From an uncultured Bacteroidales bacterium (GTDB taxonomy: Bacteria > Bacteroidota > Bacteroidia > Bacteroidales > Muribaculaceae), in contig CACWNQ010000012.1 in the NCBI GenBank assembly GCA_902762385.1, positions 35,168 to 99,167 on the forward strand: a DNA stretch of 64,000 bases. Reading direction: 5' to 3'. The stretch's first letter is position 1. Every line of letters starts with the position of its first letter. Shown piece after piece: positions 7,778 through 37,368 of this stretch. The position numbers were made by a program, and so were the translations under genes. The notes under the pieces are model-generated. The model was given only the letters and a program-made list of their open reading frames with translations, did not search any database and was not told the DNA's origin.

Positions 7778-9802
7778 TTACCAGATAGTTACTCGGTCTT
7801 CGGGTGCGCGCCACATCTTCTCTCCGGGTTGAATGTTGAAGGCATTGAAGAACGGCTCGAGGTTGCGTATAGCAACGTTAACGCGGTTAATACCGAGAGA
7901 GTGGGGGTCGGTCTTGGTGCGACGCAGAATCTCTTCCTTGGTGATGTTGGCTGCCCACACGTTGGCATAGCTAAGGAAGAAGCGCTGGTCGGGAGTGAAT
8001 CCGTCGATTTCCTTGTCGCCAGCACCTTGCTCAGTTTTCTTGAAAGCGCTGTAGGCAACGCGCAAACCACCATGATCAGCTATGTTCTCACCCATAGTGA
8101 AGGTGCCGTTGGCATGCACGTCGTCGGCAACAATCTCGGCGCTGTATTGTGCACCCAGTTTGTCGGCGAGTTCCTGGAACTTGGCAGCATCTTCGGCAGT
8201 CCACCAGTCAATCATGTTGCCATGGTGGTCGAAGTTGCGTCCTTGGTCATCAAAGCCATGAGTCATCTCGTGACCGATTACCACGCCAATTGCACCATAA
8301 TTGCTGGCATCATCGGCATCGGGGTCGAAGTATGGCTTTTGCAGGATGCCTGCAGGGAAGCAAATCTCGTTGGTCGATGGGTCGTAGTAGGCGTTTACGG
8401 TTTGTGGTGTCATCTGCCATTTATCCTTGTCGACGGGCTTGTTCAGTTGTGAGAGTTGATATTCAGCCTCAAAACGGCGAGCGTTCTTCACATTTTCCCA
8501 GTAGTAGTTATCACGGTCGATAGTGATGCCACTGTAGTCGCGCCACTGGTCGGGATAGCCCACCTTAACAGTAAAGCTGTTGAGCTTAACAAGAGCGTTC
8601 ACTTTGGTCTTTGGGCTCATCCAAGTTAGATCCTTGATGTGCTCGCCAAGCGCCAATCGCAGATTGTTGATGAGCTTGATCATCTTTTGCTTCGACTCCT
8701 CGGGGAAATGTTTTTTCACATAGAGCTCGCCTACAGCCTCTCCAAGGACGCCATTTGGCACGTTGAGGGCACGTTTCCAGCGTGGTTGCATCACAGTCTT
8801 TCCACTCATGGCACGACTGTACATATCGAAGTTGGCCTGCTCAAAGTCATCGGTAAGGTAGTTTGAAGCAGCGTCGAGATATTTGAATGCCAGGTAATTC
8901 CTGATATCCTCAATTTTGAGAGTACCCATCATCTCGTTGAACTTTGCCATCGAGTTAAGATGCATAACGCATGCTTTTTCAACCTTAATAGAAGCTGGGA
9001 AAAGCAGGTTGAAATAGCTGTTCCAATCAAAGTTTGGGTAGTCGGCCTTGAGTTGGTCAACAGTACGTAGATTGTACTGCTTGCTGTAGTCACGGCTTTC
9101 CTCGCGTGTCATAGCCACTTTGGCAAGCTCGGTTTCAATATCAAGTATGTTCTTGGCTATCTTCTTGGCGTCCTTCGCCTTACGTCCCGAAAGGGTGAAA
9201 AGCTTCTCGATGTAAGACAGATAAGCGTTGCGAACCTTAACTGTGTTCTCGTCATTCTCGAGGTAGTAGTCGCGGTCGCCCATTCCCAGACTTCCAGCAG
9301 TCAGGTAGAGCAAATTCTGGTCGCTGTTCATCAGGTCGGCCATTACGCCACTGTCGAAGAATGGAGCAGCGATGCCTGTGTGCAGGTCGGCCATCATTGC
9401 TTCGAAACTGTTGCGAGGCATTTGATAGATTTGGGCAAGCATCATTTCAACGGGACGTGTGCCTTGCTGGTTGCGCAAGGTGCTATCCATGCCTTGAAGA
9501 TAAAGGTCGCTAACTTTCTGAGCCAAACTGCCTTTTGGATTGTTAGAACCCAAATTTAGGATAAGGTCTTTGAGTTGCTCGCGATTGTTCTCGGCAAGCC
9601 CGTCGAAGGTACCAAACCTTGCATACTGAGGGTCGAGAGGATTGGCTTTCATCCAGCCACCACAAGCATACTGATAGAAGTTTTCGCCAGGCTTAGTACT
9701 TAGGTCAAGGTTGTTGCGATCAACACCCTTGTTGAGATTGCCGGCGCTCATTGTCATTGCTGTCATCACGAGTGATAATAGTAAAAGTTTCTTAGTTTTC
9801 AT
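7778..9802 (-). CDS. M13 family zinc metallopeptidase (PepO/neprilysin-like)
   Basis: This 674-residue exported protein has an N-terminal signal segment (MKTKKLLLLSLVMTAMTMSA) and the M13 N-terminal region beginning NLDLSTKPGENFYQYACGGW. The catalytic domain contains VIGHEMTHGFDDQG (HExxH zinc site near 509-513), ENIADHGG (third zinc ligand Glu and the ExxxD motif near 571) and the CxxW-like end KMWRAPEDRVTIW (the family Cys is absent). Length and domain order are normal for the family. M13 enzymes cleave small peptides in the periplasm or at the surface. It is monocistronic, with its own promoter and terminator. Confidence 0.92.
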   Translation of the reverse strand: MKTKKLLLLSLVMTAMTMSAGNLNKGVDRNNLDLSTKPGENFYQYACGGWMKANPLDPQYARFGTFDGLAENNREQLKDLILNLGSNNPKGSLAQKVSDLYLQGMDSTLRNQQGTRPVEMMLAQIYQMPRNSFEAMMADLHTGIAAPFFDSGVMADLMNSDQNLLYLTAGSLGMGDRDYYLENDENTVKVRNAYLSYIEKLFTLSGRKAKDAKKIAKNILDIETELAKVAMTREESRDYSKQYNLRTVDQLKADYPNFDWNSYFNLLFPASIKVEKACVMHLNSMAKFNEMMGTLKIEDIRNYLAFKYLDAASNYLTDDFEQANFDMYSRAMSGKTVMQPRWKRALNVPNGVLGEAVGELYVKKHFPEESKQKMIKLINNLRLALGEHIKDLTWMSPKTKVNALVKLNSFTVKVGYPDQWRDYSGITIDRDNYYWENVKNARRFEAEYQLSQLNKPVDKDKWQMTPQTVNAYYDPSTNEICFPAGILQKPYFDPDADDASNYGAIGVVIGHEMTHGFDDQGRNFDHHGNMIDWWTAEDAAKFQELADKLGAQYSAEIVADDVHANGTFTMGENIADHGGLRVAYSAFKKTEQGAGDKEIDGFTPDQRFFLSYANVWAANITKEEILRRTKTDPHSLGINRVNVAIRNLEPFFNAFNIQPGEKMWRAPEDRVTIW

Positions 9803-9841
9803 TGTTATTATATTATTTATATAAATGTGTATTTATTGTTG

Positions 9842-9849
9842 CAAAGATA
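9842..9849 (-). promoter_or_regulatory. -7 box of the M13 peptidase gene
   Basis: The minus strand reads TATCTTTG (TAnnTTTG), 39 bases before the ATG at 9802. No clear -33 TTG was seen. Confidence 0.4.
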
Positions 9850-9972
9850 ATACATTGTTTTTAGTTGAGAGTCATTAGTTGAGAGTTTTTTTGCAAGTGA
9901 TTAGGTTGGAATCTGTTTTTAAGTATAGAATGAAAATTTTGTATTTGTTCTTCATTGTTTGAGAAAAACTCG

Positions 9973-9980
9973 TAAATTTG
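9973..9980 (+). promoter_or_regulatory. -7 box of rlmD
   Basis: TAAATTTG fits TAnnTTTG, 31 bases before the GTG start at 10012. TTTG runs upstream do not sit at the ideal spacing. Confidence 0.4.
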
Positions 9981-10011
9981 CAGTAGATATTTATTTAATA
10001 TTATTTAGTCA

Positions 10012-11418
10012 GTGGGAAAGAAGAAGAATTTGCCTCTGCTTGAGGATTTTGAGATAACAGGCGTTGCTGCCGAGGGTAAGAGCCTGGGACGCTGGAACGA
10101 CATGGTGGTATTCATCCCCTATGGTGCTCCTGGTGATGTGGCACGGGTTAGGATTACTCGCAAGAAGCACAGCTTTGCCGAGGGCGTAATAGATGAGCTT
10201 GTAAAGCCTAGTGAACTGCGTGTTGAGCCTATGTGCCAGCACTTTGGCGTTTGCGGTGGTTGCAAATGGCAGCACTTGCCCTATGAGTACCAACTGCAAT
10301 GCAAACAGCAGCAGGTGGTTGATGCTCTTGAGCGAATTGCTAAAGTTCCAATCCCTGCTATCTCTCCAATTCTTGGCTCAAAGAAAACCACCTTTTACCG
10401 CAACAAACTGGAATTTACCTTCAGCAACAAATGCTGGCTAACAACAGAGCAGATGCAGAGTGGTGAGGCATTCCCTAACCGCAACGCTGTGGGTTTCCAC
10501 ATCCCTGGTGGATTTGACAAAGTGCTTAACATTGAGAAATGTTGGCTTCAAGATGATATCAACAATCAGATTCGCGTATTCTTGCGAGACTATACCCAGG
10601 AGCGTGGCTACACATTCTATGACATTCGCAACAATGTGGGCTTTATGCGCATGATGATGGTACGCACTGCCAGCACTGGCGAGATAATGCTCGTGGTGGT
10701 ATTTAGCGAGGACAACAGGGAAGCCATTGATGAGGTTATGGCCGCAGTGAAAGAGCGTTTCCCACAGATTACATCGCTCATGTATGTCGTCAACCTCAAA
10801 GTCAACGACTCGCTAGGTGACCAGGAGTTTGTGCTCTACAGTGGTCGTGACTACATTGAGGAAGAGATGGAGGGGTTGAAATTCAGAGTAGGACCTAAAT
10901 CGTTTTACCAAACCAATAGCGAGCAAGCCTACGAATTATATAAAGTGGCACGCAACTTTGCTGGCTTGACTGGTAATGAACTCGTCTATGACCTATACAC
11001 CGGCACCGGCACAATCGCTAACTTCGTGTCACGCCAGGCCCGCGAAGTCATTGGCATCGAATATGTTCCTGAGGCTATTGAGGACGCAAAACTTAATTCA
11101 CGGGTTAACGGTATAGAGAACACCAAGTTCTTTGCCGGCGACATGAAAGATGTGCTAACTGGCGAGTTTGTGGCTTACCACGGCATCCCCGACGTGATGA
11201 TTGTAGATCCACCACGTGCTGGCATGCACGAGGATGTGGTAAAAGTAATTCTCGAAGCCGAACCCAAGCGCATAGTGTATGTGAGCTGCAACCCAGCAAC
11301 CCAAGCCCGCGATATTGCAATGCTCGATGTTAAATATCGTATAGATGCAATTCAGCCTATTGACATGTTCCCTCACACCCATCATGTGGAGAATGTGGTG
11401 TTGCTAAGTAGGAAGTAA
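10012..11418 (+). CDS. 23S rRNA (uracil-C5)-methyltransferase, TrmA/RlmD family
   Basis: This 468-residue protein uses GTG as start. It has an N-terminal TRAM/OB region (about 8-70), then the iron-sulfur cysteines C75, C81, C84 (CQHFGVCGGC) and C177. The SAM-binding loop is YDLYTGTGTIANF (about 326-338), followed by IVDPPRAGMH and the catalytic-Cys motif YVSCNPATQARD (about 422-433), all family signatures. It methylates a uridine of 23S rRNA at C5 using S-adenosylmethionine. The symbol rlmD rests on the cluster cysteines and general likeness; RlmC or another paralogous specificity cannot be excluded. Confidence 0.9.
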   Translation: MGKKKNLPLLEDFEITGVAAEGKSLGRWNDMVVFIPYGAPGDVARVRITRKKHSFAEGVIDELVKPSELRVEPMCQHFGVCGGCKWQHLPYEYQLQCKQQQVVDALERIAKVPIPAISPILGSKKTTFYRNKLEFTFSNKCWLTTEQMQSGEAFPNRNAVGFHIPGGFDKVLNIEKCWLQDDINNQIRVFLRDYTQERGYTFYDIRNNVGFMRMMMVRTASTGEIMLVVVFSEDNREAIDEVMAAVKERFPQITSLMYVVNLKVNDSLGDQEFVLYSGRDYIEEEMEGLKFRVGPKSFYQTNSEQAYELYKVARNFAGLTGNELVYDLYTGTGTIANFVSRQAREVIGIEYVPEAIEDAKLNSRVNGIENTKFFAGDMKDVLTGEFVAYHGIPDVMIVDPPRAGMHEDVVKVILEAEPKRIVYVSCNPATQARDIAMLDVKYRIDAIQPIDMFPHTHHVENVVLLSRK

Positions 11419-34642: not shown

Positions 34643-36550
34643 TCATTTTATATAGAATTGGCCGATAGGAGAGTAGCCGAGTTCTTTCATCAATGATTCC
34701 CAGTTGTGTGGCAATTCGATCTTTATGGTTGAATAGCCTCCACCGGGCATGGTCTGCAGCTTGTTGCGGGAGTTATCGCCAGTAATGAGAAACTTAGTCA
34801 TGCCTTGTTGCATGGTGGGAATGGTTTCAATGTAATCTTCGGCTGTGTCATACCACTCGGGTGTGGGTGTGGTTTCTGCTCCCTCGGTGCGTCGCAGGTA
34901 GCCTGTGTATTGGCGTATGTTGTGCTCTCCACCGTCTTTTGCCCCACCAGGATTAGCGTAGTAGTTGGCAAAAACCCTTTCGCGGAGAGGGCGGCGTGAT
35001 GCCTTGATAAGTGTTTGTTCCAAGTCGTAGGTTGAGGAATATACTGTTGCAAGAGTACGGGCTACTGGCTCGGTCATCAATATGGTGCGGTAGGTGAACT
35101 GCTTACCACTGCCTAGGGCAAACTGGCATCGCTCACTAATGTCCCACGCCAGCAGCTGCATGATTTTCTGGGGATTGGTGGTGGATGGTGCCATATTGTT
35201 GCCCCAAAGTAGTGTTGATGCCGCAGTGATGGTGTTGTCGTTAATGTTATATCCTTCACGTACATGATAAGGTTGCCATCCCACACGCATGCATGCTTCC
35301 TCGTCCTCGGCCATGCACCACGACATTGGGTAGCCAAAGGTGCCCATGCGATCTTGTTTCACATAGTAGCCGCACAAGTTCATCAGCGCCAAGTTCATAA
35401 AGCGGCCTATCGCCACGTTGGCAGCTTCGTTTATCTCGCCCTGTCCACTGTCGATACCTAACTGTCGTGTTACTGGGCCGTTCATCCAGCAATAGGGCAC
35501 CCAAGCGTGTGTGCTTGCGAGAGTGCGGCGAAATTCTGGCCCTCCCAGAGCTTTAGTCAAGGCAATGAGGATGGGCATATATTCGGGCTTGCATCCAGCC
35601 ATCACACCGTTTACTGCCACGTGCCATGCAGTGGTGTTGCGGTGAGCTATTGGCAATGTTGCCACTGTCTCATCCCAGCGGTAGTGGGTGAAGCGCAGCA
35701 TTTCGTTCACTTTCTCGAATGTGGGTGGGACTATTGGCAAGCCGTCGCTCCACCTCATCTCATTGAAATAGGCATTCACCTCATCTAGTGTGCCAAAAAA
35801 CACGTCGTCGCGCAGGTCGCCATGGTTGGCAGCTAGGCCTTTGTTTAGCTCTTCGGTTGTAATTGGCCTGGTGAGCGCGTCCACAATCTGTGGCCATAGT
35901 ATTTGCTGGGTGTTCTTAATGAGAGTTGCCTCATCGTCTAAGGCAAAAGCATTGGGATATTCGGCCACTCGAAGCACTGGCACGCCATTGTTAAGGGCCG
36001 TGTAGTGGGCTTGGGCTGTGAAACTTGGAGCTGTGATGATAACTGATGGAATACCGATGTATTCGGCTGCTATGCACGATCCGGTCTCTTTGGGAGTGCA
36101 GAGTCCGCAACCGCCGTTTCCAGAAATGACGGCATCCACGTGGAGGTCACGCAGGCGTTGCTGAAACTCGTCTTTCGCTCGGCGTGTGATGCCTGGCGCA
36201 GGGTAAGGGCCAGCTGTCCCCACCTCATCGAGTAGTAGCACATGGACATCGGGATAGTTTTTCTCGATGAGACGCTTTATTTCGGGATGAGTCACTCGGC
36301 TCATGAAACTCACTCCCACCACAGCGATAGTCTTTCCCGACAGTGTGTTGAGTCGTTGCGCCTGATTAATTGGCTCTACTGTGCCGCGCCCCACTGGTGA
36401 GACCACTGCATAGCCCGCATTGCCTTTAGTCGCTGCCGATTTAGTCTCGGCACCTATCTCGCAAGTCTCGTCACACACCACACGACCTTGTCCATATACT
36501 TGTCCAATAAAAAAGTAAAGCGCGAACAATACTAGAGTTAAACGTCTCAT
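34643..36550 (-). CDS. secreted fusion of a UGSC-like domain and a DGLPIVPPT-type domain
   Basis: This 635-residue protein has a signal peptide (1-20). Residues about 72-225 resemble the UGSC-like (seleno)protein domain: KTIAVVGVSF, a conserved loop with GNGGCGLC (C148, C151) and TGSC (C159), then GIPSVIITAPSF and NGVPVLRVAEYP. Cys stands where selenocysteine is found in some members. Residues about 250-635 form a second domain opening WSDGLPIVPPTFEKVNEML (about 267-285) with NGVMAGCKPEYMPILIALTKA (C320). In other bacteria I recall this second type as a separate gene beside UGSC proteins; that recollection is unverified. Possibly a periplasmic redox or hydrolytic enzyme. It is the last gene of the 38.3-34.6 kb operon. 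Confidence 0.65.
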   Translation of the reverse strand: MRRLTLVLFALYFFIGQVYGQGRVVCDETCEIGAETKSAATKGNAGYAVVSPVGRGTVEPINQAQRLNTLSGKTIAVVGVSFMSRVTHPEIKRLIEKNYPDVHVLLLDEVGTAGPYPAPGITRRAKDEFQQRLRDLHVDAVISGNGGCGLCTPKETGSCIAAEYIGIPSVIITAPSFTAQAHYTALNNGVPVLRVAEYPNAFALDDEATLIKNTQQILWPQIVDALTRPITTEELNKGLAANHGDLRDDVFFGTLDEVNAYFNEMRWSDGLPIVPPTFEKVNEMLRFTHYRWDETVATLPIAHRNTTAWHVAVNGVMAGCKPEYMPILIALTKALGGPEFRRTLASTHAWVPYCWMNGPVTRQLGIDSGQGEINEAANVAIGRFMNLALMNLCGYYVKQDRMGTFGYPMSWCMAEDEEACMRVGWQPYHVREGYNINDNTITAASTLLWGNNMAPSTTNPQKIMQLLAWDISERCQFALGSGKQFTYRTILMTEPVARTLATVYSSTYDLEQTLIKASRRPLRERVFANYYANPGGAKDGGEHNIRQYTGYLRRTEGAETTPTPEWYDTAEDYIETIPTMQQGMTKFLITGDNSRNKLQTMPGGGYSTIKIELPHNWESLMKELGYSPIGQFYIK

Positions 36551-36618: not shown

Positions 36619-37368
36619 CTATCGCTGCTTGAAGATGAATCGTGAGCGCACGCGTGAAACGCCGTCGGCACTGATGTCGAGGCGCACGTTCATTGGGTCA
36701 TTGTCATCGATAGTGACAATGGCTTCGCTGTCGTAGTAGGCTTCTTTGACAAAGGCAATTTCCATGCGCTCGATGAAGTTATGGGCGTGCCACTGCATGG
36801 GGAAAGTGTTGACTAGGTGCTCGAGATAGCGCACGGTGTTAACATGACCGTTGAAGTCGATGTCGGTGTAGCGAAAGCGAAAGTCCTCGGTGCGTGTGGG
36901 CTCGAAAGGTCTGAGGCGGCTCTGTGGCTCAATTGGGCATGGGTGCCCGGTGACGTTGGCTGAAATATAGCTTAGTTTTGAAATATCCACACTCTCTCGT
37001 GTGTTGAGGTTGATTACAACCCAAATGGTGCGTGCGTAACCTATCACGTTTCCGTCACCGTCGGCAATTTCCATGTTACGTTGCGAGAAGTGGCGGTTGT
37101 AGTCTTCAATCCATGTGGTGAGGGAGTACCACTCATCGACGCGCGGATAGCGTTTCATCTCGATGGTGACGCGAGAGAGCACCCATCCTTGACAGTCTTC
37201 TATTAAGCGAGCATAGCCCACTCCCCATGTGTTGGCATGATTGGTGGCCACTTCAATTATTCGGTTCATTAGCAGCGTTAATGGCATCTCGGCCTGTGGA
37301 TTACATTCTCCTGCTGAGAGGTAAAACGACTGCTTATATTCTTTCAAGTTTGGATTGCTTTCTATCAT
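36619..37368 (-). CDS. acyl-ACP thioesterase (FatA/FatB family)
   Basis: This 249-residue protein has two hot-dog domains. The first (1-130) includes FYLSAGECNPQAEMPLTLLMNRI, then GWVLSRVTIEMKRYPRVDEW and TWIEDYNRHFSQRNMEI. The second (about 150-249) includes FRFRYTDIDFNGHVNTVRYLEH, with the Asn-His pair of the FatA/FatB active site. It releases fatty acids from acyl carrier protein in the cytoplasm. Its ATG overlaps the stop of the preceding secreted-protein gene (37365-37368), so the two are coupled. Confidence 0.9.
   Translation of the reverse strand: MIESNPNLKEYKQSFYLSAGECNPQAEMPLTLLMNRIIEVATNHANTWGVGYARLIEDCQGWVLSRVTIEMKRYPRVDEWYSLTTWIEDYNRHFSQRNMEIADGDGNVIGYARTIWVVINLNTRESVDISKLSYISANVTGHPCPIEPQSRLRPFEPTRTEDFRFRYTDIDFNGHVNTVRYLEHLVNTFPMQWHAHNFIERMEIAFVKEAYYDSEAIVTIDDNDPMNVRLDISADGVSRVRSRFIFKQR

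Follow-up and report, generated by a model that had tools for sequence, protein, structure and literature searches.

A predicted exported, cysteine-based UGSC fusion protein from Bacteroidales and its probable kinship with PrdB/GrdB

The gene described here probably encodes an exported protein that works with cysteine and is made as a single chain. The protein belongs to a large family in which a UGSC domain is fused to a conserved C-terminal partner, here called the C-domain. The gene lies in a stretch of 64,000 nucleotides from an uncultured Bacteroidales bacterium, a stretch that we call the window. The cytosolic relatives appear to be mostly selenoproteins, and the novelty looks to lie in a clade of exported Cys forms predicted in anaerobes of six phyla. 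The UGSC domain itself is probably related, at a distance, to PrdB and GrdB, the selenoprotein subunits that carry out catalysis in D-proline reductase and glycine/betaine reductase. Neither the exported Cys clade nor the PrdB link was found in print in the literature searched. We propose, at roughly even chances, that the protein is an extracytoplasmic thiol-dependent reductase that cleaves a C-X bond of a small molecule.

The minus-strand ORF begins with ATG, and a search of its own genome gave one match. Its parts are the following.

34643..36550, minus strand: fused UGSC/C-domain gene, 635 aa (ORF, Pfam)
36488..36550, minus strand: predicted signal peptide, residues about 1-21 (sequence pattern)
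36461..36475, minus strand: CDETC (C26, C30) directly after the signal peptide (position checked)
35870..36406, minus strand: UGSC domain PF24696, residues 49-227 (Pfam), Rossmann/flavodoxin-like in the model
36098..36109, minus strand: CGLC, residues 148-151, with C148 at the Sec position of relatives (alignments)
34646..35803, minus strand: C-terminal partner domain, residues 250-635, with no named family (Pfam/NCBIfam scans)
35591..35593, minus strand: C320 of GVMAGC, nearly invariant (alignments)

The UGSC domain named in the original prediction was recovered by PF24696 at residues 49-227 (E 7.5e-14, 52.7 bits, above the Pfam gathering cut-off of 25). The NCBIfam equivalog NF041046 (UGSC_fam) scored 41.2 bits, below its cut-off of 125, and a weak PrdB row in the NCBIfam scan (E 0.024) lay over the motif. 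Separate profile searches of the two halves had been recommended; the scans made here identified the N-terminal half as UGSC, but gave the C-terminal half no Pfam or NCBIfam family: no model exceeded its cut-off (E <= 1) with the C-domain, whether in the window protein or in any relative scanned. This domain of about 370 aa (residues 250-635) does bear SDGLPIVPPT and GVMAGC in the same ORF, as expected of the claimed fusion. The export signal also held up, as a predicted one: the N-terminus starts with MRR and has a hydrophobic core, together with a cleavage pattern of small residues.

A scan of genome contigs with the C-domain alignment gave at least 582 related stretches. The best 80 were kept (loci, given below by L numbers), which are the nearest to the window C-domain and therefore favour the window architecture. 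At least one fused ORF, with TGA read through, is present in 79 of these best 80 loci, amounting to 87 fused ORFs besides the window; in L041 only the C-domain was found. On plasmids, 24 records matched and 12 were opened. In six of them the two domains are encoded by neighbouring genes of their own (Haloterrigena, Halorientalis, Halalkalicoccus, Arthrobacter, Roseovarius and Variovorax SRS16), so that a proposed survey for adjacent pairs was rewarded. Four have fusions (Variovorax boronicumulans, Sporomusa, Vibrio and Acidovorax T1 (in-frame TGA)), Neorhizobium has a broken fusion, and one more, without annotation, was left out. The original view that the two domains are normally separate neighbours found support as to the existence of unfused pairs but not as to what is normal, as 79 of the 80 loci nearest to the window C-domain hold the fusion. 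Fusion as such is neither special nor new: one involving UGSC was published in 2008, as UGSC/Unknown_1 of the Global Ocean Sampling survey (PMC2398784).

Several variations on this architecture were seen. The Arthrobacter UGSC protein (L018:6994-7809) has a C-terminal NifU-like domain (27.2 bits, cut-off 27). A second C-domain gene adjoins the UGSC gene or fusion in L013, L021, L049-L051, L081, L084, L092, L094, L097 and L098, as if two C-domains served a single UGSC in the enzyme; the second gene bears a dockerin in L049 and L051. Contigs L054, L057, L061, L066, L069 and L078, titled as one Chloroflexi MAG, carry many Sec fusions. Several of these have receptors of the SBP_bac_5 type next to them, which looks like duplication to serve different substrates.

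Conservation was read from a 100-row alignment of 33 exported-clade rows (31 loci, the window and one same-genus copy) and 67 others (56 fused ORFs, four plasmid fusions and seven paired rows). The rows are not independent: a haloarchaeal UGSC occurs in two of them, and a single Chloroflexi genome supplies several. The column of C148 has Cys in 33/33 exported-clade rows; among the other 67 it has TGA in 55, Cys in 10 (with the haloarchaeal UGSC twice) and Met in 2. C151 is matched by Cys in all 33 exported-clade rows and 65 of the others, and C320 in 28 and 66, respectively. The corresponding counts for C159 are 21/33 and 1/67. A 59-row alignment (A3), with Sec treated as Cys, shows no variation at C148, G149 or C151 and keeps C320 in at least 90%. 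In these alignments, conservation of the motif is far from chance. The numbering of C26, C30, C148, C151, C159 and C320 was verified. Cysteine had been predicted to replace selenocysteine in both a CxxC and a GSC motif. The former part stands, C148 of CGLC being the Sec column. C159 of GSC (residues 157-159) was rejected as the Sec equivalent, as the Sec column of the 100-row alignment is that of C148; given the column counts, GSC is a coincidence and CGLC is the UGSC motif. A single site formed by C148, C151, C159 and C320 is unlikely, because C159 is poorly conserved and C320 is replaced by V or L in 5/33 exported-clade rows. The loss of C320 in these five also weighs against the main reading.

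An in-frame TGA is found in 54 of the 56 non-exported fused ORFs of the best 80 loci. The selA gene scored above cut-off in all seven genomes with the TGA form and in none of 12 exported-clade genomes. Neither of two Actinomycetes with a cytosolic Cys form had it above cut-off, one giving a weak match, and none was found in the window genome, which is 96.6% complete. Several of the genomes tested are drafts, where single absences may be gaps. It is this pattern across the genomes tested that supports reading the TGA as selenocysteine.

The 33 exported rows make up one side of a branch with SH-aLRT 100 and a stem length of 1.14, in a tree of 94 rows made by a quick method with SH-aLRT as its only support. 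A rule-based pattern, written after the N-termini had been inspected, assigns a signal peptide to 31 of 32 exported-clade ORFs and to none of the 56 other fusions. The sole miss is L048, whose start is near a contig end. In the 56 non-exported ORFs, the median distance from the nearest ATG to the domain that it precedes is 3 residues. Directly after the signal peptide, 29 of the 32 proteins of the exported clade (from 31 loci plus the window, scored by eye) have a CX3-5C pair; L049, L050 and L051 lack it. The titles of the clade, by NCBI ranks, span Bacteroidota, Verrucomicrobiota, Kiritimatiellota, Lentisphaerota, Bacillota and Spirochaetota, with the reservation that MAG titles can be wrong. 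A Verrucomicrobia MAG (L028) falls among Bacteroidales rows in the tree, suggesting transfer of the exported fusion between phyla. Rumen, abomasum, cecum, colon or rectum is named in several titles. RUG in titles we take to stand for rumen uncultured genome, and DTU084 and AS09 are presumably from digesters. We call the host gut-type because the title of L035 names roe deer abomasum and its N-terminus is the same as that of the same-genus copy L005. Treponema zioleckii kT3 (L044) is a named strain with the Sec-free exported form.

Two further features were noticed within the clade. In L029-L035 the fusion has a conserved tail of about 80 residues (YYNLxG...PFDGxNIEVTT), which is absent from the window protein and for which the L034 copy gave no family match. 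In L029, L030, L032, L033, L034 and L035, at about 9370-10390, a related gene begins a few bases after the fusion, and its L030 copy has dockerin and formylglycine-generating-enzyme-like domains.

The window gene was found in 6 of 24 same-genus genomes and in none of 16 other genomes of the order (40 relatives, E <= 0.001). A UGSC profile found none in 148 other genomes drawn from the order, nor did a protein search in 394 other genomes drawn from the phylum (E <= 1e-4). On these counts the gene is patchy and rare in the sampled order and phylum. A Sec fusion is present in a MAG titled Chitinophaga (L053).

The kinship with PrdB and GrdB comes from profile comparison. A search with PF07355 matched in 9 of 18 relatives' genomes. 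Of 15 loci taken from this search, 13 have a U-P-x-C motif by pattern and make up the PrdB-like profile, L111 and L113 being left out; one member was confirmed as PrdB-like at 105.9 bits, below the model cut-off of 300. By hhalign, a profile of 98 UGSC rows matched the PrdB-like profile at 95.1% (E 2.9e-8 for a database of one) with the motif columns superposed. The value was 91.1% with the motif masked and 0.1% in the reversed control. Seven of eight control families gave 0.1-3.8%, but TrxB, the Rossmann control, reached 31.9%, which speaks against the main reading. A direct PrdB match gave 14.1 of the required 300 bits and PF07355 gave no row at E <= 1 for the window protein, placing it outside PrdB and GrdB as defined by these models, which likewise speaks against the main reading. 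A pyruvoyl partner of the PrdA/GrdE type was not matched in the C-domains scanned (Pfam, NCBIfam). In the AlphaFold model of the whole protein (pLDDT 89.0, pTM 0.87), CGLC follows a strand (140-146) and stands at the start of a helix (151-164). The best structural matches of the UGSC-domain model are Rossmann/CheY-like. The C-domain model is confident (92.9, 0.92), and a structure search with it found nothing clearly similar.

Genes for thiol electron transfer were sought with TrxB, TrxA, CcdA and TlpA as BLAST queries, every ORF of the 80 loci being searched. TrxB-like proteins occur in 12 of 48 non-exported loci, including L091, whose fragment 7.6 kb away was left uncounted. The TrxB-like gene is within 0.7 kb of the UGSC or C-domain gene in eight of the 48 (L060, L070, L081, L087, L094, L097, L098 and L099), at 1.6 kb in L092, and at 3.3-3.8 kb on the other strand in L058 and L059. 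In L081, L087, L094, L097 and L098 it directly follows a second C-domain gene. All 11 counted proteins, and those of five plasmid loci, have CxxC. With NCBIfam TRX_reduct, the three genome copies tested scored 221-232 bits, below the cut-off of 343, and the Variovorax SRS16 copy passed (380). In Sporomusa, where the motif has Met/Ser, the neighbouring flavoprotein is without CxxC (one case). Of 86 same-strand neighbours of 35 non-exported loci, 54 were hand-picked for Pfam and yielded 12 TctC receptors, 6 SBP_bac_5 and 4 Pyr_redox_2, a set that fits uptake and use of small molecules.

In the exported clade the thiol-transfer genes are of another kind. Downstream of the fusion are a DsbD_TM/CcdA protein in L036, a ResA/TlpA-type thioredoxin and then DsbD_TM (CcdA) in L037, and a TlpA-type protein followed by a NapH/MauN-type 4Fe-4S membrane protein in L048; L055 has a TlpA-like fragment. 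Against the main reading, such adjacent genes are present in only 3 of 32 exported-clade loci, two of which are related Bacillota, and no substrate-related gene was found to recur across the clade. The window locus has no adjacent thiol-transfer gene; two DsbD-type proteins are encoded elsewhere in its genome. The other neighbours, from 20 exported-clade proteins scanned, are mixed: VTT, FMN reductase, metallo-hydrolase, metal ATPase, DNA glycosylase, sigma factors, dockerin proteins and unknowns. In the window, the fusion is closely preceded, on its own strand, by a gene for an acyl-ACP thioesterase (36619-37368). Neither this gene, the 326-aa ORF beyond it nor the downstream UPF0029 gene is seen again next to the fusion in any of the 80 related loci.

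The redox role that had been foreseen for the fusion is supported, at the level of prediction, and the scheme that we favour makes it specific. C148 (Sec in relatives) would attack an electrophilic carbon of a small organic substrate, which the C-domain would hold. The C-X bond would be cleaved, X being N, S, O or a halogen, and C151 would free the product by forming a C148-C151 disulfide that would then be re-reduced. For D-proline reductase it has been proposed that Sec attacks the alpha carbon and that a cysteine brings about release, and glycine reduction draws on thioredoxin reductase and thioredoxin (PMC3091704). Electrons would come from a thioredoxin-reductase-like flavoprotein and thioredoxin in cytosolic members. 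Exported members would obtain them from a membrane carrier of the CcdA/DsbD type and an external thioredoxin of the TlpA/ResA type, the extra N-terminal Cys pair possibly relaying them. We infer the actual location of the fusion, its reductase activity, the bond cleaved, the role of the C-domain and the relay from kinship and neighbouring genes.

TlpA/CcdA neighbours also feed repair enzymes, and the protein could be such an enzyme of the envelope, in which CGLC reduces protein disulfides, sulfenic acids or peroxides under ECF sigma or two-component stress control, a reading that deserves notice although we think it improbable. Genes of a single ECF sigma group adjoin the exported fusion in 8 of the 32 loci (L024:8110-8586, L025:4445-4927 and L055:5506-6039, with upstream copies in L029, L031, L033, L034 and L035; Pfam was run on those of L024 and L055), and response-regulator and kinase pairs are near it in four (L036, L044, L046 and L049, by eye). 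Five of the eight ECF loci, however, form one tight Bacteroidales cluster in the tree. A peroxidase activity of GrdB, named in the title of a reference cited by PMC3091704, is in keeping with repair, whereas the Rossmann/CheY-like matches of the UGSC domain tell against it, if not exclusively. So do the solute receptors (12 TctC and 6 SBP_bac_5 among the 54 neighbours scanned) near non-exported relatives, and a conserved partner domain of about 370 aa with near-invariant residues of its own, which suggests a specific small substrate.

That partner could instead be the real enzyme, a lyase, hydrolase or isomerase, with UGSC as a redox switch or structural partner. The Sporomusa and Vibrio fusions (L014:5656-7380 and L015:5872-7557) have Met and Ser at the motif and aconitase X genes near, and keep both domains; stand-alone second C-domains recur as well. 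We nevertheless doubt this, for in 98 of 100 rows the motif opens with Cys or TGA, and making selenocysteine comes at a high cost. It is most improbable that the protein is no thiol redox enzyme and that its cysteines bind a metal or Fe-S cluster, for although CxxC motifs are found in metal proteins and an extra N-terminal Cys pair is present, 55 of 67 other rows have TGA at the first motif position, as catalytic redox sites typically do, and CxxC is present in the TrxB-like neighbours.

Thiol-dependent cleavage of a small molecule can be extended to a history of the clade, which we offer only tentatively. The clade may be the first extracytoplasmic branch of PrdB/GrdB-type reductive cleavage, having moved out once, taken Cys for Sec, replaced thioredoxin reductase by a CcdA/TlpA-type relay and spread among gut anaerobes of six phyla, with the C-domain as the substrate half. 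In aquatic metagenomes, UGSC proteins rank with the most abundant of all selenoproteins (PMC2398784). The Sec-free exported form, the PrdB/GrdB kinship and thiol-electron neighbours on both sides of the membrane would bring the family within reach of tests in Escherichia coli that need no selenium machinery. If true, exported reductive cleavage would be a new route by which gut communities act upon plant or dietary compounds outside the cell.

Among known systems, the UGSC family of PF24696 and NF041046 has a like N-terminal domain, with a UxxC motif that becomes CGLC in the window protein. The latter differs from the family in scoring below the NCBIfam equivalog cut-off and in its predicted export signal, its fusion and its additional N-terminal pair of cysteines. 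In recent reviews the family is listed with no function (PMC13188914, PMC9312934). The UGSC/Unknown_1 proteins (PMC2398784) likewise join UGSC to a conserved unknown domain in one chain, but they are aquatic selenoproteins, and their partner may or may not be this C-domain. PrdB and GrdB/GrdH (TIGR04483, PF07355) have an aligned U/C-x-x-C with the following helix and strand as in UGSC, and resemble it in a thiol-type electron supply (PMC3091704). Unlike them, the window protein has a predicted export signal and Cys for Sec, and gives no match above cut-off. A GrdB-type system has been proposed to cleave C-F in a rumen bacterium. This putative fluoroacetate reductase, farB/farE of Cloacibacillus porcorum, is the like case of a GrdB-type system in a rumen anaerobe that would act on a C-X bond, although it has a GrdB homologue predicted to contain Sec and not a UGSC protein (PMC10838667).
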